Shown piece after piece: positions 2,194 to 60,291 of a stretch of 64,000 nucleotides of DNA. Below the pieces are notes generated by a model, which made no database searches, had not been told where the DNA came from, and saw nothing but the letters and a program-made list of their open reading frames with translations. This DNA is from Akkermansia muciniphila. GTDB lineage: Bacteria > Verrucomicrobiota > Verrucomicrobiia > Limisphaerales > UBA9464. The translations under genes were made by a program, and so were the position numbers. Numbering within the stretch: position 1 is the stretch's first letter; every line of letters begins with the position of its first letter. The stretch is taken from positions 28,889 to 92,888 of the forward strand of contig CAMAUY010000003.1 of NCBI GenBank assembly GCA_945861565.1, written 5' to 3'.

Positions 2194-4296
2194 ATGAAAG
2201 TCTTCTGGTCATGCCTGTGCTCGCTGGCACTCGGGATGTTTGTCGCATCTGGAGCGCCCGCCATCCCGCCGCCAGCCCACCATTGGGCGTTCCAACCGAT
2301 CGCCGATGTAAGACCTCCCGAGATTCGGGACCGCTCGTGGTGCCGGATACCGATTGATTCTTTTATCCAGGCGAGGCAGGACGGGATGGGCTTGTCGCCA
2401 GCGAAGGCGGCGGATCCGCGCGTGCTGATTCGTCGCATGACGTTTGATATGACCGGGCTGCCGCCGGCTCCATCGGAGGTTGCGGCGTTTGTTTCTTCCG
2501 CCCAGCGGGATCGGACGGTCGCGTTGGATGCCCTGATCGAACGGCTCCTGGCATCGCCCCATTATGGAGAACGTTGGGGACGCTGGTGGTTGGATGTAGC
2601 GCGATACGCCGATACCAATGGCCAGGACGAAAACAAGGTGCAGGCGAATGCGTGGCGATACCGTGACTGGGTTGTCCGCTCCTTCAATCGGAATCAGCCC
2701 TTTGACCAGTTCATTGTCGAACAAATCGCTGGAGATTTGCTGCCTCCGGCTCCATCCGAATCGGAAACTTTCGACCGCCTGATCGCGACTGGATTTCTGG
2801 TCCTTGGACCCAAGATGTTGGCCGAGCAAGACAAACCCAAACTGGTCATGGACATTGTCGATGAACAGATCGATACCGTGGGCAAGGCGTTTCTCGGTCT
2901 CACTCTCGGATGTGCTCGTTGTCACGATCACAAGTTCGATCCGATTCCGGCCAGCGACTACTATGCGATGGCCGGCATCTTTAAGAGTACCCGGACCATG
3001 GAGGATCTGGCCTTCGTGTCGAAATTCAACGAGCGCCCCATTTCACCGCCGGCAGTGATGGCGAGCCTCTCTGCGCACGCCGAACAGGTGAAAGCACAGA
3101 CCAATCGGATTCAAGAAGTGATTCGTGATGCCAACGCCGCTTTAGTGGCGGATCTGAATCACGAACTCCCAAAAGATCCCCACCTGTTGTATCCGCTCGC
3201 CACCCGCGAACGGCTTGCTGCGTTGGAAAAGGAGCGGGATCACCTGATCACCAACGCGCCCCCCCCCGCCGCGTACGCGATGTCGGTGGCCGAGGACAAA
3301 CCGGTAAATCTCCCCGTGCATCTCCGCGGAAGTCATCTCAACCTGGCCAAAGATCCAGTCCCGCGCGGTTTCCTACAGGCCGTCAGCCGACGGGGGCCCG
3401 TGCCGCCGATCCCCCGCGAGCAGAGTGGCCGCCTCGAACTCGCCCGCTGGTTGACGTCTTCCCAAAACCCGCTCACCGCCCGTGTGATCGTCAACCGCCT
3501 GTGGCAGGCGCACTTCGGGGAAGGAATCGTCCGTACTCCCGATAACTTCGGTCTCCGCGGAGAAGCGCCGACCCATCCGGAACTGCTGGATTGGCTTGCG
3601 TGCGAATTCTTGCGTACCGGCTGGGATGTCAAAGCACTCCATCGACTAATTCTCCGCAGTGCGGTCTACCAGCAGTCGGCAGGTGTTCCGACGGATTCCC
3701 CGGGGACATCGAGCGACCCGGACAATCGTTTGTTATTCCGCTTTCCCCGACAGCGCCTCGAAGCCGAAATGATTCGTGATGCGCTACTCGCAGTTTCCGG
3801 ACGCCTTGACGCGGCGGCAGGGGGTTCGTTGGTGAATTGGAAAAACAATCAGTATGCGCCAAGCGACGACGTCTCCGCAACCTCCGTGCGACGGACACTC
3901 TATCTTCCAATCGTCCGAGACAGGGTTTACGACGCCCTGACCATTTTTGACTTTGCGAATCCGAGCGTCTGTTCGGCACGGCGAACGCATACGGTTGTTT
4001 CCCACCAGGCCCTGTTTTTTTTGAACAGTCCACTCGTGAAAGATTGCTCGTTGGCGCTGGCAACGTCCCTGCTGGCACGGGACGATCTAGACGATTCGGC
4101 CCGTGTGCGCGAAGCCTACCATCGCATTCTCAACCGCCCTGCATTGGATCCTGAAATTCACCGGGCAAGACGCTTCCTGGGTGAGCTTCCACGCGATCCC
4201 GGGACCCCGGCAACCGAGGCCGACCGGCGTCGGGACGATTTGGCGCTGCTGTGCCAGACCCTTTTTGCTTCCAACGAATTTGTGTATTACCACTGA
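2194..4296 (+). CDS. DUF1549/DUF1553 domain protein, short form without N-terminal PSCyt1 (copy 1)
   Basis: Signal peptide; SPHYGERWGRWWLDVARYADT, GCARCHDHKFDPI, NPLTARVIVNRLWQAHFGEGIVRTPDNFG, FRFPRQRLEAEMIRDALLAVSG. Confidence 0.88.
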   Translation: MKVFWSCLCSLALGMFVASGAPAIPPPAHHWAFQPIADVRPPEIRDRSWCRIPIDSFIQARQDGMGLSPAKAADPRVLIRRMTFDMTGLPPAPSEVAAFVSSAQRDRTVALDALIERLLASPHYGERWGRWWLDVARYADTNGQDENKVQANAWRYRDWVVRSFNRNQPFDQFIVEQIAGDLLPPAPSESETFDRLIATGFLVLGPKMLAEQDKPKLVMDIVDEQIDTVGKAFLGLTLGCARCHDHKFDPIPASDYYAMAGIFKSTRTMEDLAFVSKFNERPISPPAVMASLSAHAEQVKAQTNRIQEVIRDANAALVADLNHELPKDPHLLYPLATRERLAALEKERDHLITNAPPPAAYAMSVAEDKPVNLPVHLRGSHLNLAKDPVPRGFLQAVSRRGPVPPIPREQSGRLELARWLTSSQNPLTARVIVNRLWQAHFGEGIVRTPDNFGLRGEAPTHPELLDWLACEFLRTGWDVKALHRLILRSAVYQQSAGVPTDSPGTSSDPDNRLLFRFPRQRLEAEMIRDALLAVSGRLDAAAGGSLVNWKNNQYAPSDDVSATSVRRTLYLPIVRDRVYDALTIFDFANPSVCSARRTHTVVSHQALFFLNSPLVKDCSLALATSLLARDDLDDSARVREAYHRILNRPALDPEIHRARRFLGELPRDPGTPATEADRRRDDLALLCQTLFASNEFVYYH

Positions 4297-4313
4297 AAGG
4301 GATACTCGAGCCC

Positions 4314-5750
4314 ATGCTGCATACTCTTCCATCGCCGATCACGCGACGTCAGGCTCTTCGACAATGTGGCGTTGGATTTGGCGCGCTTGCCCTCACGGAT
4401 CTCCTCGCGAGAGCCTCGGGAGCGGGGCCTGCGAGTGCCGGGTCTAGGCCGAGTGGTCGCCCTGATTCGGGTCCACTGCAGGCCCGATCGCCCCATTTCT
4501 CGGCACGGACGAAGCGGGTGATATTTTTGTTCATGCACGGGGGTCCCTCCCATGTAGATACCTTTGACTATAAGCCGGCACTCCTGCGCGATTCCGGCAA
4601 GCCCTTGCCGTTTGCAAAGCCCCGGGTGCAGTTTTCCAAGACCGGCAACCTCCGTCAGTCGCCCTGGGCTTTTCGGCCTTATGGGCAGTCCGGCGCCATG
4701 GTCAGCGACCTATTTCCGAGCGTTGGGGCATTGGCGGATGAGATCTGTTTCTTGAAGTCGATTCACGGCACCAACGAGGCGCACGGGGGTGCTTTGCTAA
4801 AACTCCACACGGGTTCGGATACCTTTGTGCGCCCCAGCATGGGCTCGTGGATCAGCTACGGTTTGGGCACGGAGAACCAAAACCTGCCGAGCTTTATTAC
4901 GGTGAATCCGACCAAGGGCCATGGAGGCGTCGGTAACTGGTCGAGCGCCTTCCTCCCCGCCACGCATCAGGGCACACCCATCGGCGGCGGCAAGGCAACG
5001 GGTGATCCGGCGAAAATTGCGTACCTGGGAGCGGGCGGCGGCACCGCCCGGCAACGAGCTCAACTGGATTTGCTGGCGGAGATTGACCGGGAACAGCTCG
5101 CACTGACCGGTCCCGATGCCGAGCTCGAAGCGCGGATTCAGTCGTTTGAACTCGCCTTTAAAATGCAAACCGAGGCTCCGGAAGTTTTTGATCTTTCCGG
5201 GGAAACGCCGACAACGCGCGCCCTGTATGGCCTCGATGATCCCAAGACTGAGAATTTCGGAAAGCAATGCCTGCTGGCGCGACGGTTGAGCGAGCGCGGC
5301 GTTCGCTTCGTCCAGATCACACACGGCTATTGGGATCAGCACGAGAAACTCACCGAAGACCATGGACGTTTGGCGCATGAAGTGGACCGCCCGATTGCCG
5401 GGTTGCTCCGCGACCTGAAATCGCGCGGTTTACTTGAAGATACGCTGGTGTGGTGGGGCGGTGAATTTGGGCGCACGCCCACCGTGCAGGGAAGTGATGG
5501 ACGGGATCACCATCCCCATGCTTTCACGATGTGGCTGGCGGGCGCGGGCGTGAAGCCGGGATTGAGCTACGGGATCACGGACGAGTATGGGTTCTATCTC
5601 GCCGACCAAAAAGTCCACATCCACGACCTCCACGCCACTCTCCTGCATCTGCTGGGACTCGATCACGAACGCCTGACGTTTCGTCAAGGCGGACGGGATT
5701 TTCGTCTAACCGATGTTGCGGGTAATGTGGTGCATCCGATTCTGGCCTGA
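4314..5750 (+). CDS. DUF1501 family (sulfatase-like) protein with Tat-like signal (copy 1)
   Basis: MLHTLPSPITRRQALRQCGVGFGALALTDLL; FLFMHGGPSHVDTFDYKP, WWGGEFGRTPTVQGSDGRDHHPHAFT, HDLHATLLHLLGLDHERLTFRQGGRDFRLTDV; start moved from 4251 to 4314. Confidence 0.88.
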   Translation: MLHTLPSPITRRQALRQCGVGFGALALTDLLARASGAGPASAGSRPSGRPDSGPLQARSPHFSARTKRVIFLFMHGGPSHVDTFDYKPALLRDSGKPLPFAKPRVQFSKTGNLRQSPWAFRPYGQSGAMVSDLFPSVGALADEICFLKSIHGTNEAHGGALLKLHTGSDTFVRPSMGSWISYGLGTENQNLPSFITVNPTKGHGGVGNWSSAFLPATHQGTPIGGGKATGDPAKIAYLGAGGGTARQRAQLDLLAEIDREQLALTGPDAELEARIQSFELAFKMQTEAPEVFDLSGETPTTRALYGLDDPKTENFGKQCLLARRLSERGVRFVQITHGYWDQHEKLTEDHGRLAHEVDRPIAGLLRDLKSRGLLEDTLVWWGGEFGRTPTVQGSDGRDHHPHAFTMWLAGAGVKPGLSYGITDEYGFYLADQKVHIHDLHATLLHLLGLDHERLTFRQGGRDFRLTDVAGNVVHPILA

Positions 5751-20312: not shown

Positions 20313-22955
20313 TTGAACAAACCAGATCTACTTAACCGCAGAGTGTTGCTAAACCTAATTCCATTGAGCCTGCACCACCGCACACGTTATCGTGACAAGT
20401 TCATAACTCGACCGGCGGGCAGCACGAGCCTGAGAGGTTGGGTGTGGGCGACTTTCTGCACGTTTGCCCTTGTGTCCGCGTGCATCCGCTCAGTGGCGGC
20501 GACTCCGGGCGGAAAGCACTGGACGTTCGAGCCCGTGAGAAAACCCGCTCTTCCCGCCCTCCCCGGCGGTGTCGAGCCGACGCAAACCGACATCGACCGA
20601 TTTATCGTCGCGGCACTTCAGACTCGCGGGTTGTCCCTGTCGGCACCGCTTACCCGATGGCAATGGATTCGTCGTGCGACATTTGATCTCACCGGCGTCC
20701 CACCCACTTGGGAGGAGGTTCGCGCATTCGTTGAGGACCCCTCCGTCGACGCGAAGGAAAAGGTTCTGGATCGCTTGTTGAACTCGCCACGCTACGGTGA
20801 GCGCTGGGGGCGGCACTGGCTGGATCTCGCGCGCTACGCGGACACGCTGGGCGGAAGTGCCATTGGATTTAGCCGGTTCCCGTTCTCCTACACGTATCGG
20901 GACTATGTCATTCGTTCCTTCAACGCGGATTTGCCGTATGACCGCTTCGTCACAGAACAATTGGCGGCGGATCAGCTGGGACTGAGCGAAAACGATCCAG
21001 CGCTGGCGGGACTTGGGCTGCTGACGGTCGGGATGCAATACCGAAACCGACATGATGTGATCGACGACCAGATCGATGTCATTTCACGCGGCTTGATGGG
21101 TTTGACGGTCGCGTGCGCTCGTTGCCACAACCACAAATTCGATCCGATCTCGACGGAGGATTACTACGCACTCTACGCCACCTTCGCTGCCAGCCGGGTT
21201 CCCGAGTTGCTGCCGATCATTGGCAAGGCGAAGAATGATGAACCGCATCGCGATTATCAACGTGAGTTGGCGCGTCTTCAGGAGAGTCATGACGCTATGG
21301 CGAGCGAACAGAATGACGTGATGCGCAGTCGTCTGCGGATGCAAGTCGGGCTGTATCTGCGCGAGCTCGCGAAAGGGGTTCCGGAACAGGATCTTTCAAC
21401 GGCTTTCCTATCCTATCGCACCGATGATACCCGGCCTCTTGTACTGAATCGTTGGCGGAACTACCTGAAGAAAATGCCCGAAAACGATCCGGTATTCGGC
21501 CCGTGGATCCGACTTTCGCGAATGCCTCCGGCTGAATTTTTGACCGCTTGCTCCAACCAGATCCAGAGTTTCGAAAAGGAGAACGGTGATCCGGCGAAAT
21601 TTAAAGACCCGCATCTCCTCGCCGCGCAGGCGCCTGTGTGGAATCCGCGAGTACTCGAAGCGATTGCCAAGAAGTCTCCACAATCATTGATCGACGTTGC
21701 GGATGCCTACGGGGATCTATTTGCCAACGTGCATCAGACTTGGTTAAAGGGTCTGCAAGCGGCATCCGCTGAAGCCGCCGCCGGTGCCGAGATCATTCCC
21801 GACGAAGACCCGCGGCATCTGGACGTCAATAGTCCGATCAATCGACAACTGCGTCGCCACCTTTACGGAGAAAACACTCCAACCGCAGTTCCCGATGACT
21901 TGGCGGTGCATCTCTTGAACCGGACGGTGAATGACAATTTGTCCGGGCGACGCGGGGCGATACACGATCTCCATCTGAACTCCCCGGGATCGCCGGCGCG
22001 AGCCATGGCGCTGCAGGAGGAATCGTCTCCGGATTCGTTTCATGTCCTGAGGCGTGGGAACCCACTCGACCGCGGCGCGGTCGTTCCAGCGCGCTTTCTG
22101 ACCGTGCTCGATTCGACGAATGCCCCACCGTTTCCGGACGGTCACCGTCGTTTGGGGCTGGCGCGCAAGGTCGTATCGGCGGATAACCCGCTGACACGAA
22201 GGGTTCTCGTGAACTGGGTGTGGCAGCATCATTTTGGACAGGGCTTCATGAAGACTCCGGACGACTGGGGAACCCGAGCGAGCAAGCCGACCCATCCCGA
22301 GTTGTTGGACTACCTGGCGTCGGTGTTTGCCGAAGATCGATGGTCCATCAAGAAACTGCATCGTCGCATCATGCTGTCCTCGGTCTATGCGCAGGGTGCG
22401 ATTGAAGATGCGCGGTCACGCCAAGCGGACCCCGAAAATGAACTTCTCTGGCGGATGCCGCGTCGTCGGTTGGAGTTGGAGGCGATGCTGGATTCCCTCT
22501 TGGCGGTGTCCGGGGAATTGGATCCTGTTGTCGGCGGAAAGCCTTACGATCGCGATACCAAGCCTACGGTGCTGCGCCGTAGCGTCTACGCGTTCGTGAA
22601 CCGGGACATCGTTTCCAATCTTTCGAGCACCTTTGACGCCGCGAATCCGAGTTCGTGCACCGCGCGCCGTCCGGACACTACCGTGCCACAGCAAGCACTC
22701 TTCGCAATGAATTCGGAATTCATCCAGGATCGTGCGGCGGCACTGGCGGCGCGGGTTGGCCCGATTGCTGGGGACGACGATGTTCGGCGAATTCGCGAGC
22801 TGTATCGGCGCGTATACTCGCGCGAACCCGAAGCGGCCGAACAGGAGCGCATTCTTCGCTTCGTGCGCGACGCCGCCCAATCGTCCTCGATTACGGCGTG
22901 GCAACAGGTCGCGCACACGTTGCTCGCGGCGAACGAATTTGCCTTCGTGGACTGA
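20313..22955 (+). CDS. DUF1549/DUF1553 domain protein, short form without PSCyt1 (copy 2)
   Basis: SPRYGERWGRHWLDLARYADT, ACARCHNHKFDPI, NPLTRRVLVNWVWQHHFGQGFMKTPDDWG, WRMPRRRLELEAMLDSLLAVSG; start uncertain (TTG 20313 or GTG 20442). Confidence 0.88.
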   Translation: MNKPDLLNRRVLLNLIPLSLHHRTRYRDKFITRPAGSTSLRGWVWATFCTFALVSACIRSVAATPGGKHWTFEPVRKPALPALPGGVEPTQTDIDRFIVAALQTRGLSLSAPLTRWQWIRRATFDLTGVPPTWEEVRAFVEDPSVDAKEKVLDRLLNSPRYGERWGRHWLDLARYADTLGGSAIGFSRFPFSYTYRDYVIRSFNADLPYDRFVTEQLAADQLGLSENDPALAGLGLLTVGMQYRNRHDVIDDQIDVISRGLMGLTVACARCHNHKFDPISTEDYYALYATFAASRVPELLPIIGKAKNDEPHRDYQRELARLQESHDAMASEQNDVMRSRLRMQVGLYLRELAKGVPEQDLSTAFLSYRTDDTRPLVLNRWRNYLKKMPENDPVFGPWIRLSRMPPAEFLTACSNQIQSFEKENGDPAKFKDPHLLAAQAPVWNPRVLEAIAKKSPQSLIDVADAYGDLFANVHQTWLKGLQAASAEAAAGAEIIPDEDPRHLDVNSPINRQLRRHLYGENTPTAVPDDLAVHLLNRTVNDNLSGRRGAIHDLHLNSPGSPARAMALQEESSPDSFHVLRRGNPLDRGAVVPARFLTVLDSTNAPPFPDGHRRLGLARKVVSADNPLTRRVLVNWVWQHHFGQGFMKTPDDWGTRASKPTHPELLDYLASVFAEDRWSIKKLHRRIMLSSVYAQGAIEDARSRQADPENELLWRMPRRRLELEAMLDSLLAVSGELDPVVGGKPYDRDTKPTVLRRSVYAFVNRDIVSNLSSTFDAANPSSCTARRPDTTVPQQALFAMNSEFIQDRAAALAARVGPIAGDDDVRRIRELYRRVYSREPEAAEQERILRFVRDAAQSSSITAWQQVAHTLLAANEFAFVD

Positions 22956-22961
22956 ATCCTA

Positions 22962-24352
22962 TGACTACCCAATTTCCATCCTCGCGCCGAGAATTCCTCA
23001 AACGCTGCGGCATGGGATTTGGTTCGCTGGCGCTGGCGGACCTGATCTGCCAACCGGGCCACGCCGGCGACATCACGACGCATTTTGCGCCGCGCGCCAA
23101 GCGAGTGATCCATGTATTCCTGAACGGTGGCATGTCGCAGGTCGACACGTTTGATCCTAAACCCGAGCTGACGAAACGCGGCGGGCAGATGCTGCCGTAT
23201 GAGAACTTGCAGACCGAGCGCAAGACCGGGGTGGCGTTGCCATCGCCGTTCACATTCCGGAACCATGGCGAGAGCGGGATTCCGATCAGCGATTTGTTTC
23301 CCCAGTTGTCGCGCTGTGCCGATGATCTGGCGGTTATCCGGTCGATGCATGTCGAACTGCCCAGCCATGAGCTGTCGCTGATGTTGATGAACACCGGTGA
23401 TCAGCGGTCTGTGCGTCCAAGCATGGGTTCATGGCTCACCTGGGGCATGGGTTCCGAGAATCAGAATCTGCCTGGGTTTGTCGCATTATGTCCCGGGGGA
23501 ATGCCGGTCGGGGGCGCAGCAAACTGGCGTTCTGCATTTCTGCCGGGAGCGTACCAGGGTGTTCACGTGGACACGTCCCAGGCCGATCCACGCAAACTGA
23601 TCGACCACATTCGCAACGGACGAATGAGCGCCAATGCTCAGCAGAACCAATTCGAATTACTGAGGGAATTGAACGCGCAGCATTCCGCGTCGCGCCCAGG
23701 GGAAGCGGCTTTGGAGTCGCGGATCCGATCCTTTGAACTCGCCTACCGCATGCAAATGGAGGCGACCGACGCACTGGATGTGGATCAGGAACCGGAACAC
23801 ATTCGTAAGGCCTATGGTGAAGGGCCTCAAAATCGACAGCTACTCATGGCCCGGCGGTTGGTGGAGCGGGGAGTTCGGTTCGTCCAGACGTGGCATGGCA
23901 ACATGCAACCGTGGGACAGCCACTCGAACATACGCACGGAGCATCGCAAGGTGGCGAACGAATGTGACCAGGGCTTGGCGGCGCTGATAATGGATCTCAA
24001 ACAGCGCGGCCTTCTGGACACGACATTAATTTTGTGTTCCGGGGAGTTCGGCCGCACGCCTTCCGTCGAAATGGGGCAGAACGGTTCAGGGGCCGCCCAG
24101 GGACGCGATCATAATCATTGGGGATTTTCCTTGTGGCTGGCCGGGGGTGGCATCAAGGGCGGAACCGTCTATGGCGCGACGGATGAATTCGGATTTCGCG
24201 CCGTTGAAAATCCTGTTTCCGTCCATGACTTGCACGCCACAATGTTGCAATTGTTGGGCTATGATCACGAGCGACTCACCTATCGCTACGCGGGTCGTGA
24301 CTTCCGATTGACCGATGTATACGGGCGTGTGGTGCGCGATATTATTGCGTGA
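22962..24352 (+). CDS. DUF1501 family protein with Tat signal (copy 2)
   Basis: MTTQFPSSRREFLKRCGMGFGSLALADL; VFLNGGMSQVDTFDPKPEL; CSGEFGRTPSVEMGQNGSGAAQGRDHNHWGFS. Confidence 0.88.
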
Positions 24353-45306: not shown

Positions 45307-46830
45307 ATGAACCGACGTCATTTCCTCGGTGCCTTGAGCGGAGTTGCCTGGGCCGGGGGCGGCTTGGGCCCGATTCCACAGGGGGCTGCGGCAGTACCAT
45401 TACCCTCGGAAGCTCGCGACATCAGTTCACGGCTGGAGCTCTTCGTTGATGACTGGCTGATCGACAAACTCCGTGGCCTGGATCGACGCCTGCACCACCC
45501 GACGCCGCAAAATGTCGCCTTGGATGCGGATAAGCCGTGGGAAGGAAACGGCGGAAACTATATGACCGTGTTTCAGGATGGGGACCGGTATCGCATGTAC
45601 TACCGGGGCGTCCATGTGGTCTACAGCCAAGGCAAATTTGACGAGCCCCACCCCGAATACACCTGTTACGCGGAAAGCACCGACGGGATTCATTGGACGC
45701 GCCCGAATTTGGGGTTGTTCGAAGTGGCGGGCACCCGCGAGAACAATGTGATTCTCACCCGAGAAACCGGTGGCGAAGCGACTCATAATTTTTCACCGCT
45801 CATCGATACACGACCCGGGGTGGTGAAGGAAGAACGTTACAAGGCCTTGGGGGGTGGCGGGAAGGGCTTGATCGCGTTTAGTTCCGCCGACGGTATCCGT
45901 TGGAAGAAGCTCCGTGAGCAGCCCGTGATCACCCAAGGAGCGTTTGATTCTCAGAACCTCGCCTTCTGGGACACAGATCGAGCGGAATACCGCGCATACT
46001 TCCGGGATTTTCGAAAGGGACGTGATATCAAGACCTGCACGTCAAAGGATTTTCTCGTCTGGACCGAGCCAGTCTTTCTCGAGTACACGCCGGATCGGAT
46101 CAGCGAATTGTACACCAATCAGATTCTTCCCTACCCTCGAGCGCCGCACCTGCTGCTGGGATTTCCGACCCGCTACACGGATCGTGGCTGGACGACGGCG
46201 GCGAAGGCGCTTCCGCAGTACGACTACCGGCGAATTCGCGCCAGCCAATCCCAGCGAGAAGGAACCGCGCTGACCGATGGAATGTTCATGAGCAGCCGAA
46301 ATCGCCACCGATTTGTCGTTTGGCCGGAATCCTTCATTCGTCCCGGCCTCAAACTCAAAGGCAATTGGTTCTACGGCGACAATTACCAGAGCCTCGGATT
46401 GGTGGAGACCCCGTCGCGCATCGAAGGTGCGCCGGGGGAACTGTCATTCTATGTCACCGAATCCAGTTTGCAGGGAGAATCCGTCCGCTGGCGCCGCTAT
46501 ACCCTGCGCATCGACGGATTTGTGTCGGTACATGCGGAGTCCACCGGAGGGGAAATGATAACACGGCCGATTCGCTTCACCGGCAAGCAGTTGGTCATGA
46601 ACTACTCGACCTCGATCGCCGGGGGAGTCCGGGTGGAAATTCAGGACGCCCAGGGCACTCCCATTCCCGGCTTCACGCTGGCGGACGGAGAGGAGTTGTA
46701 CGGCGACTCGCTGGGTCAGGTGGTTTCTTGGCAGAAGGGTGATGACGTCAGTTCACTGTCCGGCCAGAGTGTCCGACTGCGGTTTGTGATGAAGGATGCC
46801 GATCTCTATTCGATTCAGTTCAGGACTTAA
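45307..46830 (+). CDS. Exported glycosidase-like (five-bladed beta-propeller type) protein with Tat-like signal
   Basis: MNRRHFLGALSGVAWAGGG; LFVDDWLIDKLRGLDRRLHHPTPQNV...YRMYYRG...YTCYAESTDGIHWTRPNLGLFEVAGTRENNVIL. Confidence 0.65.
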   Translation: MNRRHFLGALSGVAWAGGGLGPIPQGAAAVPLPSEARDISSRLELFVDDWLIDKLRGLDRRLHHPTPQNVALDADKPWEGNGGNYMTVFQDGDRYRMYYRGVHVVYSQGKFDEPHPEYTCYAESTDGIHWTRPNLGLFEVAGTRENNVILTRETGGEATHNFSPLIDTRPGVVKEERYKALGGGGKGLIAFSSADGIRWKKLREQPVITQGAFDSQNLAFWDTDRAEYRAYFRDFRKGRDIKTCTSKDFLVWTEPVFLEYTPDRISELYTNQILPYPRAPHLLLGFPTRYTDRGWTTAAKALPQYDYRRIRASQSQREGTALTDGMFMSSRNRHRFVVWPESFIRPGLKLKGNWFYGDNYQSLGLVETPSRIEGAPGELSFYVTESSLQGESVRWRRYTLRIDGFVSVHAESTGGEMITRPIRFTGKQLVMNYSTSIAGGVRVEIQDAQGTPIPGFTLADGEELYGDSLGQVVSWQKGDDVSSLSGQSVRLRFVMKDADLYSIQFRT

Positions 46831-48166: not shown

Positions 48167-48284
48167 TTCCCCGGGGCCAAAGCCTCCGGTATTGGCCAGT
48201 CGGGCTAATACCGTCAATTCCAATCCCTCCGAATTACCAGCTGCACCCGCGTGGATGAATGTTACTCGAAGGACTGTACCCCAC

Positions 48285-50630
48285 ATGCCACTCCAACTTG
48301 TCACCGAACTTACCGACACCGACCGCCGATTGTTGGATCGCGCCACCGAGGGCTTTCTGCCCCAGCGCGTCTATGACATCCATTCACACCTCTATCATAC
48401 GCGCCACTTCGCCCAAGGAACCTTGCCGGCGTTTCTCGATGCCGACCGCGGTTATGGCTTGCGCGATTTTAAGGAGGCGATGGCGCGCTGGATGCCGGGA
48501 CGCGACGTCGAAGGATTGTTCTTTGGCTATCCGTGGCGGGGTAATGACCGCGCGGGAGAGAATGCCTGGCTACAGGAACAGATCGCACCGACGGTCGCAT
48601 CGACCCATTCCCGGGCTCTGGCGCTCGTCGCCCCCCAGGATGATCCATCCGGGGTTCGGCGGTTGCTGGAAAACGGCGTTTTCATCGGCATTAAGCCCTA
48701 CCGCGTCTACGCCGACGTGCCGGACACGAACGAGGCCACCATCGAGTCCTTTGCTCCGGAATGGATGTGGGAACTGTGCCACGACCATGAGGGCGTGCTC
48801 ATGCTGCACATCATGCGGTCCGGCGGCATTACCGATCCGGACAATGTTGACAGCATCCGCCGACTTTGCCGTCGTTATCCACGCTGTCGACTGGTCCTGG
48901 CACATGTGGCGCGTTCGTTCAACTACCGTCATGCCCGCGAGGGCCTGCACGTTCTGGCGGATATCGACAACGTCGTGGTGGACACTTCCGCTGTGACACA
49001 CACCGGCGCTTTTCGTGCAGCATTGGAGATTCTGGGCCCGCGGCGCGTTCTCTGGGGGAGCGATTATATGGTCAGCGAGCTGCGCGGCACCTGCGGCACT
49101 CAGGGCGATGGCTTTACCTGGATTTATTCCGAAGACGCATCGGCGAAGGACCTCACCGTTTTTGGCCATTACACCCTCGTCGGCATCGAGTCGCTCCTGT
49201 GCTTGCGCGAAGCCTGCGAAGACACCGGGATGAACCCTGCGGATCTGCAGGATATCTTTCATGACAACGCCTTGCGCCTGCTGGCACCACATCTGCGCAG
49301 CGACGGACTCCGACCGAGTCTCCACGGTCCTGAACTGTGGTCACAGGCCAAAGCGAAAATTTCCTGCGGCACGGGCTTGCTCTCAAAGCGTGCGCATCTC
49401 TTTGATCCGGTCACCTGGCCCTCCTACTACTCACGCTGCAAAGGAACGGACATCTGGGACCTCGACGATCATCGCTACACCGACTTCACCGGCGGGGTGG
49501 GGGCCATTCTGCTTGGCCATGGCGATGAAGCCGTAAACGCTGCCGTAAAGCGCCGAGTGGACCTTGGCAGTTACTGCACGCTCGTCTCGCCCGACGAGGT
49601 AACGCTCGCCGATGTCCTGCTCGATCTGCATCCATGGGCACAGAAGGTGCGCTATGCACGCGGTGGCGGCGAAGCGCTTGCCCTGGCGGTGCGCATCGCC
49701 CGCGCGGCGACGGGCAAGAGTGGCATCGCCTTATGCGGCTATCATGGCTGGAGTGATTGGTATCTCGCGGCCAACCTCAACGAATGCGATGCGCTCGACG
49801 GACATCTGCTGCCGGGACTTGAGCCGCTGGGTGTGCCACGGGAACTCCGAGGAACGGCGGTTCCATTTCGTTACAACGATCCCGTCGCGTTCCAAGCAGC
49901 GCTCGACACTCTCGGCAACAATCTTGCCGCTGTGGTTATGGAACCGATGCGTTCAGAACTGCCCCGTGACGGTTTTTTGCAAAACGTGGCCGCATCCTGC
50001 CGTGCCGCTGGCGCGGTTTATATTGTGGACGAAGTCACCAGTGGCTGGCGCTTCGGTTTTCCGGGCGCCTGCCCGAAGCTCGGCATTCAGCCCGACCTGG
50101 CGGTGTATGCGAAGGCGATGAGCAATGGCATCCCCTGTGGCGCAATCATCGGCACGGAAGCGGTGATGGCGGGTGCGAATCGGAGCTTTATCTCGAGCAG
50201 CTACTGGACCGACGGCATCGGCCCGGCGGCTGCGCTGGCCTGCATCCGTAAGATGCAAACGCACGGCGTGCAGCAGCATGTGTGGCAACTCGGCGAACGC
50301 CTGCAGCAGGGCCTGCGCGCGGTGGCTTCCCGTCACCCGAGCTTAGGCATCAAAGTCGGCGGGCAACCTTGCGCGCCCTCCCTGGCGTTCGGACTCGGAG
50401 ACGACAATGCCGCCGCGAAGGCACTGATGATTCGCGGCATGTTAAACCAAAACTTTCTTTTCAGCGGCCAACTTTACGTCATGTGGCCGCACCACGAGCA
50501 GGGGATGGCCGACTTGCTCTCCTCCCTCGATGAAGTCCTCAAAAATCTCGACGAATTGCACCAGCACGGCCAGCTTCGTGAGGTGGCAGGGCCGGCGGTG
50601 GTCGCGACCGGTTTCGCCCGATTAGCCTGA
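48285..50630 (+). CDS. Fusion: amidohydrolase-family domain (N) + class-III PLP aminotransferase / GSA-aminomutase-like domain (C)
   Basis: N: RVYDIHSHLYHTR (HxH), LMLHIMRSGGI, LVLAHVARSF, VLWGSDYMVSEL. C: DIWDLDDHRYTDFTGGVGAILLGHGDEAVNAAVKRR, CGYHGWSDWYLA, VYIVDEVTSGWRFG, VYAKAMSNGIPCGAIIG (Schiff-base Lys). One uninterrupted ORF; start set at 48285. Confidence 0.88.
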   Translation: MPLQLVTELTDTDRRLLDRATEGFLPQRVYDIHSHLYHTRHFAQGTLPAFLDADRGYGLRDFKEAMARWMPGRDVEGLFFGYPWRGNDRAGENAWLQEQIAPTVASTHSRALALVAPQDDPSGVRRLLENGVFIGIKPYRVYADVPDTNEATIESFAPEWMWELCHDHEGVLMLHIMRSGGITDPDNVDSIRRLCRRYPRCRLVLAHVARSFNYRHAREGLHVLADIDNVVVDTSAVTHTGAFRAALEILGPRRVLWGSDYMVSELRGTCGTQGDGFTWIYSEDASAKDLTVFGHYTLVGIESLLCLREACEDTGMNPADLQDIFHDNALRLLAPHLRSDGLRPSLHGPELWSQAKAKISCGTGLLSKRAHLFDPVTWPSYYSRCKGTDIWDLDDHRYTDFTGGVGAILLGHGDEAVNAAVKRRVDLGSYCTLVSPDEVTLADVLLDLHPWAQKVRYARGGGEALALAVRIARAATGKSGIALCGYHGWSDWYLAANLNECDALDGHLLPGLEPLGVPRELRGTAVPFRYNDPVAFQAALDTLGNNLAAVVMEPMRSELPRDGFLQNVAASCRAAGAVYIVDEVTSGWRFGFPGACPKLGIQPDLAVYAKAMSNGIPCGAIIGTEAVMAGANRSFISSSYWTDGIGPAAALACIRKMQTHGVQQHVWQLGERLQQGLRAVASRHPSLGIKVGGQPCAPSLAFGLGDDNAAAKALMIRGMLNQNFLFSGQLYVMWPHHEQGMADLLSSLDEVLKNLDELHQHGQLREVAGPAVVATGFARLA

Positions 50631-50765: not shown

Positions 50766-52283
50766 ATGAGACTTTTAGATTGGCTGGTCATTGCGGGCTA
50801 CGCGATCAGCATGTTGGGGATCGGGCGCTATTTTGCCTTACGAAACAAGACGCTCGATGACTACCTTCTGGGCGGCCGGCGCATGAGCCCGTTCGCGGTG
50901 GGGTTGTCTCTTTTTGCGACCCTGACCAGCGCGCTCTCCTACCTTGCTGTGCCCGGCGAGATGATTAAACACGGGCCCATGCAGCTCTCGCAGTTTGTGG
51001 GATTCCCGTTGATCGGCCTCGTCGTGGGCTGGGGAATGATCCCCTTCATCATGCGCCAGCAGGGGACCAGTGCCTATCAGATGCTGGAACAACGCTTCGG
51101 CCTGAGTGTGCGATTGATGGGCGCGACGATGTTTCTGACGATGCGCATGGCCTGGATGGCGACGATATTATACGCGACTTCGGACAAGGTTCTGGCACCG
51201 ATGCTCAACCTGGGTCCTCAGGGAACGATTCTAGCCAGTATCTTGATGTGTGTCATTACCCTGATCTACACGGCGGAAGGGGGTATGCGGGCGGTCGTGA
51301 TCACCGATGCCGTCCAATCCTTGATCATGCTCGGCGGCGCTGCGGCCGTCATCGTGATTATCACGGTGAATCTCGGCGGTGTCTCGGCCTGGTGGCCGCA
51401 CCAATGGGCCGCGCAGTGGGACGAGCCGCGCTTCGGTTTTGACTCCACGACACGGATAACCTTTCTCGGGATGATCACCTCCGCCTTCGCCTGGTATGTC
51501 TGCACCTGCGGTTCGGATCAAATGGCAATTCAACGTTGGCTCTCCACCCGCGACGCCCCCGCCGCCCGCCGGTCACTCTTCACCACGCTCGGTGCGGAAA
51601 TGCTCGTGGGCATTCTTTTGGGAATGGTCGGACTTGCGGTGGTGGGCTATTTCACGGCCCATCCCGAACAGTTCACGGAATCCGCCAGCCTCATCACTGG
51701 GGCGGACAGGCTTTTCCCCCACTTCGTCATGGTGGGCCTGCCCGCTGGTATGACTGGAGTGATCATCGCCGCTGTGCTGTCAGCCGCCATGTCCAGCTTG
51801 GCGTCCGGCATGAACTCGTCGTCCTTAGTGCTCACGGAGGATTTCGTGGTTCGTTTCCGATCAAAGCCGCTAACGGATGCCGGTCGGATGCGGGTCGTGC
51901 GCTGGATTTCCGTTGCCATTGGCATCATCGTGATCCTGATCAGCCTGCTGGTGAGCCGGATTGAGGGGAATCTGCTCGATATTTGCTACCGTGCTGTGAA
52001 CCTGCTGACTGCGCCGTTATTCGTACTTTTTTTTATGGCGATGTTCGTCCGCTGGGCCACGACCTTCGGCGCGCTGACCGCCGCCGTGACCGCTGTCGCA
52101 ACCGCGGTGCGAATCGCGTATGCCGAACCCCTGGGTCTTCGCCCCATCAGCATGATGTGGATCATGCCGGGATCGTTCGTCGTGGGCGTCTTCTGCGGCA
52201 GTCTGGCGAGCCTAATGCTCATTCCGTGGCGACCAAAACACAGCGCGCCGGCGATGCCACAGGACGCCGGGAAGCCATTGTAA
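50766..52283 (+). CDS. Sodium:solute symporter family transporter
   Basis: FALRNKTLDDYLLGGRRMSPFAVGLSLFATLTSALSYLAVPGE...; IYTAEGGMRAVVITDAVQSLIM; multiple TM segments. Confidence 0.93.
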   Translation: MRLLDWLVIAGYAISMLGIGRYFALRNKTLDDYLLGGRRMSPFAVGLSLFATLTSALSYLAVPGEMIKHGPMQLSQFVGFPLIGLVVGWGMIPFIMRQQGTSAYQMLEQRFGLSVRLMGATMFLTMRMAWMATILYATSDKVLAPMLNLGPQGTILASILMCVITLIYTAEGGMRAVVITDAVQSLIMLGGAAAVIVIITVNLGGVSAWWPHQWAAQWDEPRFGFDSTTRITFLGMITSAFAWYVCTCGSDQMAIQRWLSTRDAPAARRSLFTTLGAEMLVGILLGMVGLAVVGYFTAHPEQFTESASLITGADRLFPHFVMVGLPAGMTGVIIAAVLSAAMSSLASGMNSSSLVLTEDFVVRFRSKPLTDAGRMRVVRWISVAIGIIVILISLLVSRIEGNLLDICYRAVNLLTAPLFVLFFMAMFVRWATTFGALTAAVTAVATAVRIAYAEPLGLRPISMMWIMPGSFVVGVFCGSLASLMLIPWRPKHSAPAMPQDAGKPL

Positions 52284-52327: not shown

Positions 52328-53158
52328 CTACTTCGCGGAATATCCACCATCCACGGGCAGGTTCACGCCGGTGATGTAACGGGAAGCGTTGCTTAAGAGA
52401 AAGACCACCGCACCGCCGAGATCTTCGTCATTAGCCATGCGGTTGAGCATGGTGTGCTCGGCGTAGCGTCGCACGAAGAGTTCAGGTTGGTTATTGTAGA
52501 AGCCGCCGGGCGCAAGACAGTTCACGCGCACGCTCTGCGGGCCGTAGAGGGCCGCATAAAATCGAGTGAGATTCGCCATACCGCCCTTGTGGAAGAAGTA
52601 GTCGGGTGGCACGTCACCCATGGGGGTGCCCGCATACAGCTCATAGCTCGGGCCAATCAGGCCCTGAATGCTCCCGATGTTGACAATACTACCGCGCCCC
52701 GCGTCGGCCATCGCACTGCCGAAAACACGGTGCATGAGCATCACTCCCGTAGCATTGACGCGCATCGACTCGTCCCACTGCGCCACCGTGCCGTCCGCAC
52801 CTTTCATCGGGCGCAGTACGGAATTGTTCACAAGCCCATGCAGGACACCGAATCGTTCCGTGATGCGGGCTCGCAACGATAAAATGGACGCCTCATCCCC
52901 CTGATCAAAACTCTCCGCAAAGACGCGATGGCCTAGGTTGGTTTCCGCATCGGCGACAGTTTGCAACGTGCCAAGATTCCGCGATGCGATGATGAGCGTG
53001 GCTCCGGCCTGCGCGAGTGCCGAGGCGAGCCCGCGGCCGAACAGGCCCGCCGCTCCCGTGAGGAGAACGATATGATCGTTGAGGGAGAAGGAGGGAAGAA
53101 TCAAGGGGGGGTTGGTTGGCGATTTTGAATTGGATAATCCGGCCCGGCCCGATTTCAC
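52328..53158 (-). CDS. Short-chain dehydrogenase/reductase
   Basis: VLLTGAAGLFGRGLASALAQAG; LVNNSV; NIGSIQGLIGPSYELY; NASRYITGVNLPVDGGYSAK. Confidence 0.88.
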   Translation of the reverse strand: MKSGRAGLSNSKSPTNPPLILPSFSLNDHIVLLTGAAGLFGRGLASALAQAGATLIIASRNLGTLQTVADAETNLGHRVFAESFDQGDEASILSLRARITERFGVLHGLVNNSVLRPMKGADGTVAQWDESMRVNATGVMLMHRVFGSAMADAGRGSIVNIGSIQGLIGPSYELYAGTPMGDVPPDYFFHKGGMANLTRFYAALYGPQSVRVNCLAPGGFYNNQPELFVRRYAEHTMLNRMANDEDLGGAVVFLLSNASRYITGVNLPVDGGYSAK

Positions 53159-53161
53159 AGA

Positions 53162-53977
53162 CTAACTACGGGGTGACGCATAGATCGAACTCGCCCGGGC
53201 CCGGGTGTCATCACCCGCAAAGTCGCTAATCAATTTGCGGAAGGCGTTCCCGAGTTCGAGCACATCCGCACCGAGCGTAAAAACTCGGGTCCCTTCGGCG
53301 ATGAGTTGATCTTTCTGCCCAAAGAGAGACGCCACGGCGACGAACTTCCCGTGCTTGACCGCCGCGGCGTGGACGCGCTTTCGTGCCGCCACAACATCAG
53401 GGTGGGTGACTTGGCCGAGTCTGCCGATGCGATGGCTAAAGTCACCGGCGCCGAACAGCAGCAGGTCAAAGCCGGGAACCGCCGCGATCTCTTCGACGTT
53501 TTCGAGCGCCTCGGGAGACTCGATCTGGAGGATGACGAATTTCTCGGTGTTGCAGTGGGAGACGTAGTCACTCAACGATACTTGGCAGAAAAAGCCGTCC
53601 ATATTTCCGGAATCGAGCGGCTTTTTGCCGACCGGGTGACAGCGCACCATCTCGACGACGTTGCGAGCCTCGTTCGCGCTGGTGATATGCGGCACCATGA
53701 TTCCGGTCGCATCACACTCGAAAGGCTTCACGTAGTCGCTGTAGCTTCCCTTGCTCACGCGCACGATGGTGTCCATGTCGTAAAGCTTTGCCGCGCGGAT
53801 CTGATGCTCGAGATTGAGCCAGTCATTGGGCACATGCTCATTGCACAGCCACACGGCCGAGGCTCCGGCAAGTCCGGCCAACTCAACAACGCGCGGGTCG
53901 ATGAGGTTCATCTTGAGGACGGTTGAGTTTTGTCCCGCGCGCAATTCGCGAAGGATTCGGGAGGGGCGAAGTTTCAT
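53162..53977 (-). CDS. HpcH/HpaI aldolase family protein
   Basis: MKLRPSRILRELRAGQNSTVLKMNLIDPRVVELAGLAG; ECDATGIMVPHITSANEARNVVE; LQIESPEALENVEEIAAVPGFDLLLFGAGDFSHRIG; start set at 53977. Confidence 0.88.
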   Translation of the reverse strand: MKLRPSRILRELRAGQNSTVLKMNLIDPRVVELAGLAGASAVWLCNEHVPNDWLNLEHQIRAAKLYDMDTIVRVSKGSYSDYVKPFECDATGIMVPHITSANEARNVVEMVRCHPVGKKPLDSGNMDGFFCQVSLSDYVSHCNTEKFVILQIESPEALENVEEIAAVPGFDLLLFGAGDFSHRIGRLGQVTHPDVVAARKRVHAAAVKHGKFVAVASLFGQKDQLIAEGTRVFTLGADVLELGNAFRKLISDFAGDDTRARASSIYASPRS

Positions 53978-54218
53978 GGATTCGAGGAGAGTGAGACGGG
54001 AGAGTAAGGTAAAATCGTGAGAAAACTTGCAATGAGAATAACCGTGCGATCTGAAAATGGATTCCATGCCCTCACAAATGGCGCAGGAAAGAGCAAATGA
54101 CCGGTTCCTTGATCTGCATGCAAGCTAGGTCCGTGCCGGTGAGGTGTGGGCATCCCGGATCTGGAGGAAAGTGGCGTTCGGGATCGCCTTGCTAAGGAGC
54201 CATTCCTAATTGAAAGCC

Positions 54219-57819: not shown

Positions 57820-59334
57820 CTATCCCGAAATGTGTTTTTTAATGGCCTTCAATTTCTGGTACTCCGGCCGACCGGTATAATGCGAATCCAGCGGATAGCA
57901 ACCGCTGACCAAACCATTCCGTGGGGCGGTGGTGCAGTCGCTGAATGTTCGGCAAATGGAGCGAGCCTGCAACGCTCCTTTCTGAATCGCATCCGATAAC
58001 ATCGTCGGATAGCTCAAGACCGCACGACCGACGCCGACCAGATCCGTCCACCCCTGCCGTACCAGATATTGTGCCACGTGCGGCAGATACTCCTGAAGGT
58101 AGCTCAACCCGGAACTGACGACCAACGGGGCCGGCGCGCTCCCGGCCGGTGATAGGTTCGTCGCCAAGTGTGCCTTTACCCGGCGGACCGCGTCCACCTG
58201 CCGATAAACATCCATGAGAGGATCGGTCGGCGACTGGTAACCATCACCCGGCGGATAGGCTGCCGGGCGCTGGATATGAGGATTGTAGTACGGAGAACCG
58301 GCGGTCGTGTTGAGGATCTTGACTCCCAAGGTGGCGCACAATTCAACGAATTGGAACGTTTCGGACAAGTCGATCCGCGTGGGATCCTCGGGACTGACGC
58401 CGAAACCGTAGAGATAGGGCAGATGCTCGAGGTACGGTTCGGGGATCCCCGGCCCCAGCTTTCCTGGCACCGTCAGGGCCGGGTCGGGCCGAAAAGGCAC
58501 CAGATCAAACAGGCTTAAGCGAACTCCGAGGTCGATGCCATTGCCGGTGGCACGAATGCCCGCAACGATTTCGCGAAGAATTCGGGTTCGGTTTTCAAAG
58601 CTGCCGCCATAGCAACCGCCGCGCGTGTGTGCCGCGAGAAACTCGTGAAGCAAATAGCCATGACAATGCTTCAGATCGACAAAATCGGCCCCGACATCCC
58701 GTGCAAGAGCGGCCGCCTGAACGTAATCCTGAACCAAATGAGCAACGTCCTCATCGGTGAAAACCTGAGCCGCACTGGTAACCTGGAATTTGCGGTCCAA
58801 AATGGGGTGCCGGAAAGCAACGCGAGGCTCGCCTCGCGCCTTGTCGTTGGGCCGGCAGAATCGTCCAGAATGCGTCAACTGAAATCCCACCACCAGGTCG
58901 TCGCTGGTTCCATGGTGCTCTCGGTGTGAGGACGTCAGTATTTCCAGCAACTCCGCGAGGGCGCCTTCGTTGCTCCGAGAAATGATGAGTTGGTTCGGAT
59001 TTGCTCGGCCCGAAGGACACACCGCCATGGCCTCGGCACCGCAGATAAGTTTGGCGCCACTTTGGCCAAAACGCCGCCACCGACGGCGGACCTCGTCCGT
59101 CACGCCCCCCGTGGCGGTCGCGTCCCAACCTTCCATGGGATGCAGCGCGAGCCGATTGCCAATGCACTTGCCATGAATGCGAACATCGGAAACCGGCATC
59201 GCGAGTGGAGACGTGGCTCCCGCAACGATGTCCTCCTCGCAAAAGAGAGAGATTCCAAGGGAGCCGACGTGCCGGCGAAAATCGGCAACGGACTTGAGCG
59301 AAGGAATCCGAGTGAGTTTGAAAGGATCGGCCAT
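57820..59334 (-). CDS. NADH:flavin oxidoreductase (Old Yellow Enzyme family)
   Basis: GNRLALHPMEGWDATATGGVTDEVRRRWRRFGQSGAKLICGAEAMAV; GFQLTHSGRF; DVGADFVDLKHCHGYLLHEFLAAHTRGGCYGGSFENRTRILREIV. Confidence 0.9.
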   Translation of the reverse strand: MADPFKLTRIPSLKSVADFRRHVGSLGISLFCEEDIVAGATSPLAMPVSDVRIHGKCIGNRLALHPMEGWDATATGGVTDEVRRRWRRFGQSGAKLICGAEAMAVCPSGRANPNQLIISRSNEGALAELLEILTSSHREHHGTSDDLVVGFQLTHSGRFCRPNDKARGEPRVAFRHPILDRKFQVTSAAQVFTDEDVAHLVQDYVQAAALARDVGADFVDLKHCHGYLLHEFLAAHTRGGCYGGSFENRTRILREIVAGIRATGNGIDLGVRLSLFDLVPFRPDPALTVPGKLGPGIPEPYLEHLPYLYGFGVSPEDPTRIDLSETFQFVELCATLGVKILNTTAGSPYYNPHIQRPAAYPPGDGYQSPTDPLMDVYRQVDAVRRVKAHLATNLSPAGSAPAPLVVSSGLSYLQEYLPHVAQYLVRQGWTDLVGVGRAVLSYPTMLSDAIQKGALQARSICRTFSDCTTAPRNGLVSGCYPLDSHYTGRPEYQKLKAIKKHISG

Positions 59335-59340
59335 CGAATG

Positions 59341-60291
59341 TCAGGGGGTCAATCGTTGGACGATATCTCGCAGGAGTTCACGATCCGAGTCCGGCCTTTG
59401 GGGAGACTGCGGGTGGGTGGCGTCACATCCGATCCAGCCACGTAGCTTCAAGAACATGGCTGCGGAATGTTTATAGGCAGGGACCGGCGGCCGGAACGAG
59501 AGGAAGCCAAGGTATTGCAGCAGGTCATTCAGGGAATAAAACGCGGGATCCCCGGCCACCCAGGCGGCATCCCGGCGGGCAAATATGTCCGGAGCAAAGG
59601 TGCTCAAACCGAGGAGGTAATCGCTGCCATACATCACCATGTCGATCGCCAAGTCGTTGCCCGTGTATACGCGAAAATCGGGGCGAATGCGATCCCTCAG
59701 CCGAAGCCGCTCCCATTCGAGATCGCGAGACAACGAGGAATGCTTCGCACCCACGCACTGTGGAATGTCCAGCAGGCCCCGGTAGACCTCCGACGAATAG
59801 ATCCTTCCAAAGGGAGCGAACTGGGTGCTGAGTTCAAACCCAATGAATTTTCCGGCGTAACGACCCAGCGCCCGGTACGCGGCAACGATTTCCACATCCG
59901 ACTGCTGGGTGAGACCGTACGACTGAAAAATAACCGGCGTCCCACCCTCCTGCTGGATCATGACCATCTGGCGCGCGTACGCATCGCCGTCAAAGGACGC
60001 GCCGGGCAGGTCGCTCACAAATGCGCCGGCGGCAAAGCGTCCACCCCCCAGTTCGATCCGCGTTCGGCGGAGGACTTCACGGCGCGTAAAGTCGTCGAGT
60101 AGATTCCCGAAGCCGGTGTCCATGTTAACGGCCGGGACCAGACCCGCCGTGGCGGTTCGGCGCAGATGGGCGGTGAAGCCGGGCCAGTCAACCTCGCCTG
60201 TGGTCAGGAAGGGGAGCAGGATGGCGGAGATCCCTTCAATCGGACGCCGTGGACGCAGCAATTGAAGTGGATCGGGTACCGAAGAATCCAT
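59341..60291 (-). CDS. Dihydrodipicolinate synthase / N-acetylneuraminate lyase family protein
   Basis: [57 protein letters not shown] (Schiff-base Lys context); [21 protein letters not shown]. Confidence 0.8.

Follow-up and report, generated by a model that had tools for sequence, protein, structure and literature searches.

A gene fusing two enzyme domains

Within the window, the stretch of 64,000 nucleotides analysed here, nucleotides 48285-50630 of the plus strand translate into 781 residues with a single stop and no interruption. The gene and its features are as follows.

48285..50630, plus strand: fusion gene, amidohydrolase - class-III aminotransferase, 781 aa (ORF translation, Pfam, 78 ORFs with both domains)
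48375..49283, plus strand: Amidohydro_2 (PF04909), TIM-barrel-like metal hydrolase, residues 31-333 (Pfam 5.4e-18, fold model)
48381..48389, plus strand: H33/H35, HxH metal ligands, end of strand 1 (invariant in alignments)
48693..48695, plus strand: K137, end of strand 4, putative bridging (carboxylated) Lys position (invariant in 39/39 AH sequences)
48807..48809, plus strand: H175, metal ligand (invariant in alignments)
48903..48905, plus strand: H207, metal ligand or catalytic His (invariant in alignments)
49062..49064, plus strand: D260, metal ligand / catalytic Asp (invariant in alignments)
49425..50336, plus strand: class-III aminotransferase (PF00202), residues 381-684 (Pfam 4.6e-39)
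49950..49952, plus strand: R556, Arg of MEPxR, GSAM equivalent EPVxGN (invariant; putative substrate contact)
50028..50030, plus strand: D582, PLP pyridine-N Asp (aligned with the GSAM DEV motif; invariant)
50112..50114, plus strand: K610, Schiff-base Lys (aligned with the GSAM Schiff-base Lys; invariant)

A sequence-only reading of this DNA had described a single ORF of ~781 aa with characteristic motifs of both enzyme families, and each of these motifs is indeed present in the translation: DIHSHLY (residues 31-37), LMLHIMRSGG (172-181), LAHVARSF (205-212) and GSD (258-260) in the amidohydrolase part, GYHGW (485-489), VDEVTSGWR (581-589) and YAKAMSNG (608-615) in the aminotransferase part. 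Both Pfam domains score above their gathering cut-offs (66.2 versus 26.4 bits for Amidohydro_2, 134.7 versus 30.5 bits for Aminotran_3), placing the protein in both families, and the agreement of motifs and domains is far beyond chance. An alternative TTG start at 48192 would give a longer ORF of 812 aa, but the methionine of the start MPLQLVT is common to the window gene and one close homologue, and an AAGGA-like ribosome-binding site lies ~11 nt upstream of the ATG.

Distribution of the fusion and of split gene pairs

When 84,980 species genomes were scanned, 80 loci emerged; 78 ORFs in this set, the window gene included, carry both Amidohydro_2 and Aminotran_3, with identities of about 40-77% to the window protein. 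The fused form occurs in Verrucomicrobiota, Bacteroidota, Planctomycetota, Chloroflexota, Armatimonadota, Hydrogenedentota, Kiritimatiellota and other phyla, among them the cultured Bacteroidota Chitinophaga alhagiae, Membranihabitans and Cyclobacterium, and one fusion sits in a 4.15-Mb genome assembled as a single contig. That the ORF might be an assembly chimera of two unrelated genes has thereby become so improbable that we consider it ruled out by the 78 two-domain ORFs, some of them from cultured strains. One real gene encodes both enzyme domains, as had been proposed, and the objection raised beforehand, an assembly error or missing metal and PLP ligands, does not hold, since the fusion recurs in several phyla and the ligands of both domains are invariant in alignments. 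Of 320 genomes of the order, 9 had full-length homologues in whole-genome searches, as did 9 of 388 sampled from the phylum, with the window genome included in both counts. The fusion is patchy in distribution, as a search of two further genomes from its genus did not find it (0/2). A literature search, with most subscription journals outside its coverage, returned nothing on the fused architecture. Both domains belong to known families, in a widespread, uncharacterised combination.

In two loci, the two enzymes are encoded by neighbouring genes: a 333-aa hydrolase gene overlaps a 438-aa aminotransferase gene by 8 nt (L146), or the genes lie next to each other, 2 nt apart (L152). Such separate adjacent genes had been named beforehand as a finding that would speak against the fusion; they do occur, but are rare in our sample and do not refute it. 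Here, the aminotransferases belong to the family of the fused form, whereas the hydrolases represent another subfamily, 26-29% identical to that of the window. Judged by these sequence relationships, hydrolase and aminotransferase have come together on more than one occasion, by independent pairing. Because the adjacent-gene pairs use a hydrolase of another subfamily, the pairing of both activities looks to be under selection, and their repeated joining argues for consecutive steps.

The amidohydrolase domain

All metal ligands expected for this fold, namely HxH, His, His and Asp at strands 1, 5, 6 and 8, are present (H33, H35, H175, H207, D260), and together with K137 they never vary in two alignments of fused homologues (16 and 58 sequences). 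In the AlphaFold model of the hydrolase domain (pLDDT 93.8), the fourth strand comprises residues 133-137 and ends at K137. In binuclear amidohydrolases, the bridging Lys sits where strand 4 ends, and the position of K137 in sequence and model suggests a metal centre of the hydrolase type. The best Foldseek match of the domain was the COG3618 amidohydrolase 4do7, with PF04909 decarboxylases at a near-equal score and low identity; a weak profile match to 4dlf (2.7e-4) was obtained as well. With 4do7 and the COG3618 sugar lactonases (L-fucono-1,5-lactonase group), the window domain has in common the Amidohydro_2 fold and a sugar-acid pathway context, but identity to 4do7 is 15% at a TM of 0.57, and 4do7 is a stand-alone protein. 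COG3618 includes the L-fucono-1,5-lactonase of Hobbs 2013, as cited in PMC6336799. No characterised close homologue was found for either the hydrolase or the aminotransferase domain.

On another contig, the window's own genome also encodes the hydrolase domain as a stand-alone paralogue (L154:10994-12037, minus strand). This paralogue is related to the hydrolase subfamily of the split pairs L146 and L152, and an HpcH aldolase gene (L154:13157-13978, minus strand) lies ~1.1 kb away from it. Another hydrolase subfamily, about 30-34% identical, was found within gene clusters (L157-L162). One of these (L162) combines the hydrolase gene with genes for an FGGY kinase, an arabinose-isomerase-like protein, Gfo/Idh, a sodium symporter and a class-III aminotransferase, and is a further link of both enzyme kinds in sugar metabolism.

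The aminotransferase domain

Homology to the aminotransferase family extends beyond the Pfam match (residues 381-684) to about residues 346-780. The PLP ligands D582 and K610 are invariant in both alignments (16 and 58 fused homologues), and the earlier assignment of a Schiff-base Lys within YAKAMSNG is borne out by the alignment of K610 with that of GSAM. The invariant R556 may hold a substrate carboxylate. The full-length protein was modelled with a pLDDT of 90.1 and a pTM of 0.85, and the folds nearest to its aminotransferase half were FumI (best), D-phenylglycine aminotransferase and GSAM. FumI, with a TM of 0.90 by target, acts after a hydrolase step in catabolism, where it takes the amine off hydrolysed fumonisin (PMC2933618). 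It differs from the fusion in that identity is 24%, the two enzymes are separate proteins, the substrate is a long-chain amine, and FumD, the partner enzyme, belongs to the carboxylesterases rather than the amidohydrolases.

With glutamate-1-semialdehyde 2,1-aminomutase (GSAM, HemL) and NCBIfam PRK06209, the domain has the class-III fold, the Schiff-base Lys, the Asp and the overall alignment in common. However, its scores stay far below the cut-offs of the GSAM models (190.6 versus 486 for PRK06209; 166.8 versus 527.3 bits for hemL, TIGR00713), and the QFEAG loop of GSAM near the C-terminus is 4 residues shorter and devoid of the catalytic Glu in the family members aligned. Further differences are GGGEA in place of SGTEA, an extra GFxRL tail and the fused hydrolase. 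Identity with the heme-pathway GSAM is ruled out by the scores and the absent loop, and the amino migration previously considered for this domain is not supported, the GSAM-specific loop being absent. The window genome additionally has an ordinary GSAM-like gene (L005).

Stand-alone sister aminotransferases

The stand-alone sister aminotransferases, 42-48% identical over the aminotransferase part, form one clade separate from the fused form (SH-aLRT 98) in trees that were built by a quick method and have some long branches. Their gene clusters contain PseB, PseC, PseG and PseI (above NCBIfam cut-offs) or NeuB, along with CMP-sugar synthetases, and a context-based label of 'biosynthetic' had been given to them before the tree was drawn. 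A cytidylyltransferase was present in 6/6 sister clusters tested. In L139, it is fused to the aminotransferase (L139:8920-10947, minus strand; CTP_transf_3 cytidylyltransferase - aminotransferase, 675 aa), a second domain fusion that ties the aminotransferase family to activated sugar acids. Sisters and fused form are connected by the motifs YHGWxDWYLAAN, LLSKRPE and GFxRL and by the tree, but the sisters are stand-alone or cytidylyltransferase-fused, reside in a biosynthetic context and constitute their own clade. Clusters of the pseudaminic/nonulosonic biosynthesis type that include this class-III aminotransferase, often accompanied by an AKR gene, were seen in L141, L142, L148, L151 and L153; glutamate-1-semialdehyde aminomutase was the best-matching database model for these aminotransferases. 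A case comparable by annotation is Legionella pneumophila Sg6, where a GSAM-annotated gene adjoins pseG and a cytidylyltransferase (PMC3694923). Among 16 fused genomes searched for NeuB, it was not found in 8, the window genome included; genomes with the fusion thus need not make nonulosonic acids.

Gene neighbourhood

The following window genes flank the fusion.

45307..46830, plus strand: propeller-type glycosidase-like protein, family prop3 (prop3 in 21 of the loci compared)
50766..52283, plus strand: SSF sodium:solute symporter, directly downstream of the fusion (Pfam; recurrent neighbour)
52328..53158, minus strand: SDR dehydrogenase, PtmA-like, recurrent family SDR5 (profile matches, neighbour clustering)
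53162..54067, minus strand: HpcH/HpaI aldolase, GarL/HpaI-like, 3 nt from the SDR gene (profile matches, clustering, enrichment)

The SDR and aldolase genes (52328-54067) are convergent to the fusion. Clustering of 1,100 neighbouring ORFs from the fused loci and the window revealed SDRs (PtmA-like), Gfo/Idh, AKR, HpcH aldolase, SSS/MFS transporters, PhyH, propellers and BNR proteins as recurrent neighbours, and the propeller, symporter, SDR and aldolase of the window are members of such families or equivalent ones. HpcH aldolase genes were present in 17 fused loci compared with about 0.9 expected in an equal span (from 56 copies in 87 Mb, 16 fused genomes), although the fused loci are partly related, such that the Poisson value overstates significance; the comparison with the genome background was made for the HpcH aldolase, and the numbers for the propeller, BNR and transporter families are recurrence counts. 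An aldolase gene lies near the fusion in only about a fifth of the fused loci, many of which are truncated by contig ends. In three loci of the Gimesia type, the aldolase gene overlaps the start of the fusion by 4 nt. The sugar-related context claimed earlier is upheld by the GarL/HpaI-like aldolase, dehydrogenases, transporters and glycosidase-like propellers that recur around the fusion. The propeller of the window gave only weak profile matches in the PDB (mannobiose phosphorylase and sucrose hydrolase chains) and therefore names no substrate. A BNR gene with sialidase-like sequence is located directly upstream of the fusion in 7 loci, which belong to Bacteroidota, Armatimonadota and unplaced bacteria. 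This BNR family matched sialidases in a profile search, but its consensus is devoid of the Arg of the FRIP motif, for which reason we dropped it as proof of a sialic-type substrate.

Farther downstream in the window, old-yellow-enzyme-like and DUF993-like genes, 6 nt apart (57820-60291, minus strand), are non-recurrent near other fusions. Between 54219 and 57810 (minus strand), a DUF1501-like gene and one for a planctomycete-type cytochrome-domain-like protein were recognised by eye, with related copies of this pair at 2194-5750 and 22655-24352.

Proposed function and alternatives

Breakdown of an amino sugar in two consecutive steps is probable because the two-part protein often adjoins genes for sugar uptake and sugar cleavage. 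In its specific form, our reading is that of a bifunctional catabolic enzyme that performs two consecutive steps on an amino-sugar acid and feeds a module of oxidoreductases and aldolase, for which we estimate a probability of about 0.5. The amino-sugar acid would be imported, and the N-terminal metal hydrolase would then open a lactone or remove an N-acyl group. The C-terminal PLP domain would subsequently take off the exposed amine, either by transamination to a keto-acid acceptor or by elimination, leaving an oxo-acid that the SDR, Gfo/Idh and AKR oxidoreductases of the neighbourhood may adjust and that the HpaI-type aldolase would finally cleave into pyruvate (or a similar keto acid) and an aldehyde. 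We infer the order of steps, the chemistry of each and the substrate class; a nonulosonic-type acid is one candidate substrate. The substrate channelling suggested by the earlier reading gains no support here, the two enzymes being encoded by separate genes as well, and neither does its proposal of a lactone or uronate-derived substrate. Non-phosphorylative sugar pathways proceed via dehydrogenase, lactonase, dehydratase and aldolase (PMC6336799), and on our best reading, the proposed route would by analogy follow this logic, with the PLP step replacing or accompanying the dehydratase. It would equally match the logic of fumonisin degradation, in which a hydrolase acts first, followed by FumI (PMC2933618, PMC9025740).

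A narrower version of the catabolic role, possible though clearly less probable, assigns to the enzyme a pseudaminic-type (nonulosonic) acid, the fusion undoing the modification introduced by the sister aminotransferases. This would fit the location of the sister clade in Pse/NeuB and CMP-sugar synthetase clusters with their Legionella Sg6 parallel, the AKR genes common to both settings and the sialidase-like BNR genes adjoining some fusions; yet the biosynthetic sister's own step is undefined, the sialidase-like neighbour is without a sialidase Arg, and the aldolases are mostly HpcH, not NanA-like. With about equal reserve, one may picture the fusion as the central enzyme in degrading pseudaminic-type nonulosonic acids of bacterial surfaces, with the HpaI-type aldolase in the place of NanA. 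If so, Verrucomicrobiota, Planctomycetota and Bacteroidota could feed on the surface sugars of other bacteria. No pathway of pseudaminic-acid catabolism was found in the literature searched.

That the fusion might instead act in making a surface amino sugar or a nonulosonic acid, its sisters being biosynthetic by context, appears unlikely in view of the separate position of the biosynthetic clade in the tree, the transporters, aldolases and hydrolases in the neighbourhood, and the eight genomes in which NeuB was not found; for the window genome, being one of these, a biosynthetic role is disfavoured. The near-equal fold matches to PF04909 decarboxylases also raise the idea of a decarboxylase (cf. 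ACMSD, resorcylate decarboxylases) in place of the hydrolase, joined to a PLP domain that would act as an amine lyase or racemase. We regard this as improbable, since the invariant Lys ending strand 4, as in binuclear hydrolases, suggests a hydrolase-type metal centre, and aromatic-type substrates are ill-suited to the sugar context.

Implications

Among bacteria that break down complex glycans, the fusion points to a predicted catabolic module that is widespread and uncharacterised. Two probably consecutive activities share one polypeptide and have a candidate transporter and a candidate aldolase as neighbours, which offers a direct handle on the substrate. Our analysis would also correct automatic names, which give related stand-alone proteins the label glutamate-1-semialdehyde aminomutase even though the features of GSAM are absent. 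Should the substrate turn out to be a nonulosonic acid, the fusion would provide an entry point for studying how pseudaminic-type sugars are catabolised.
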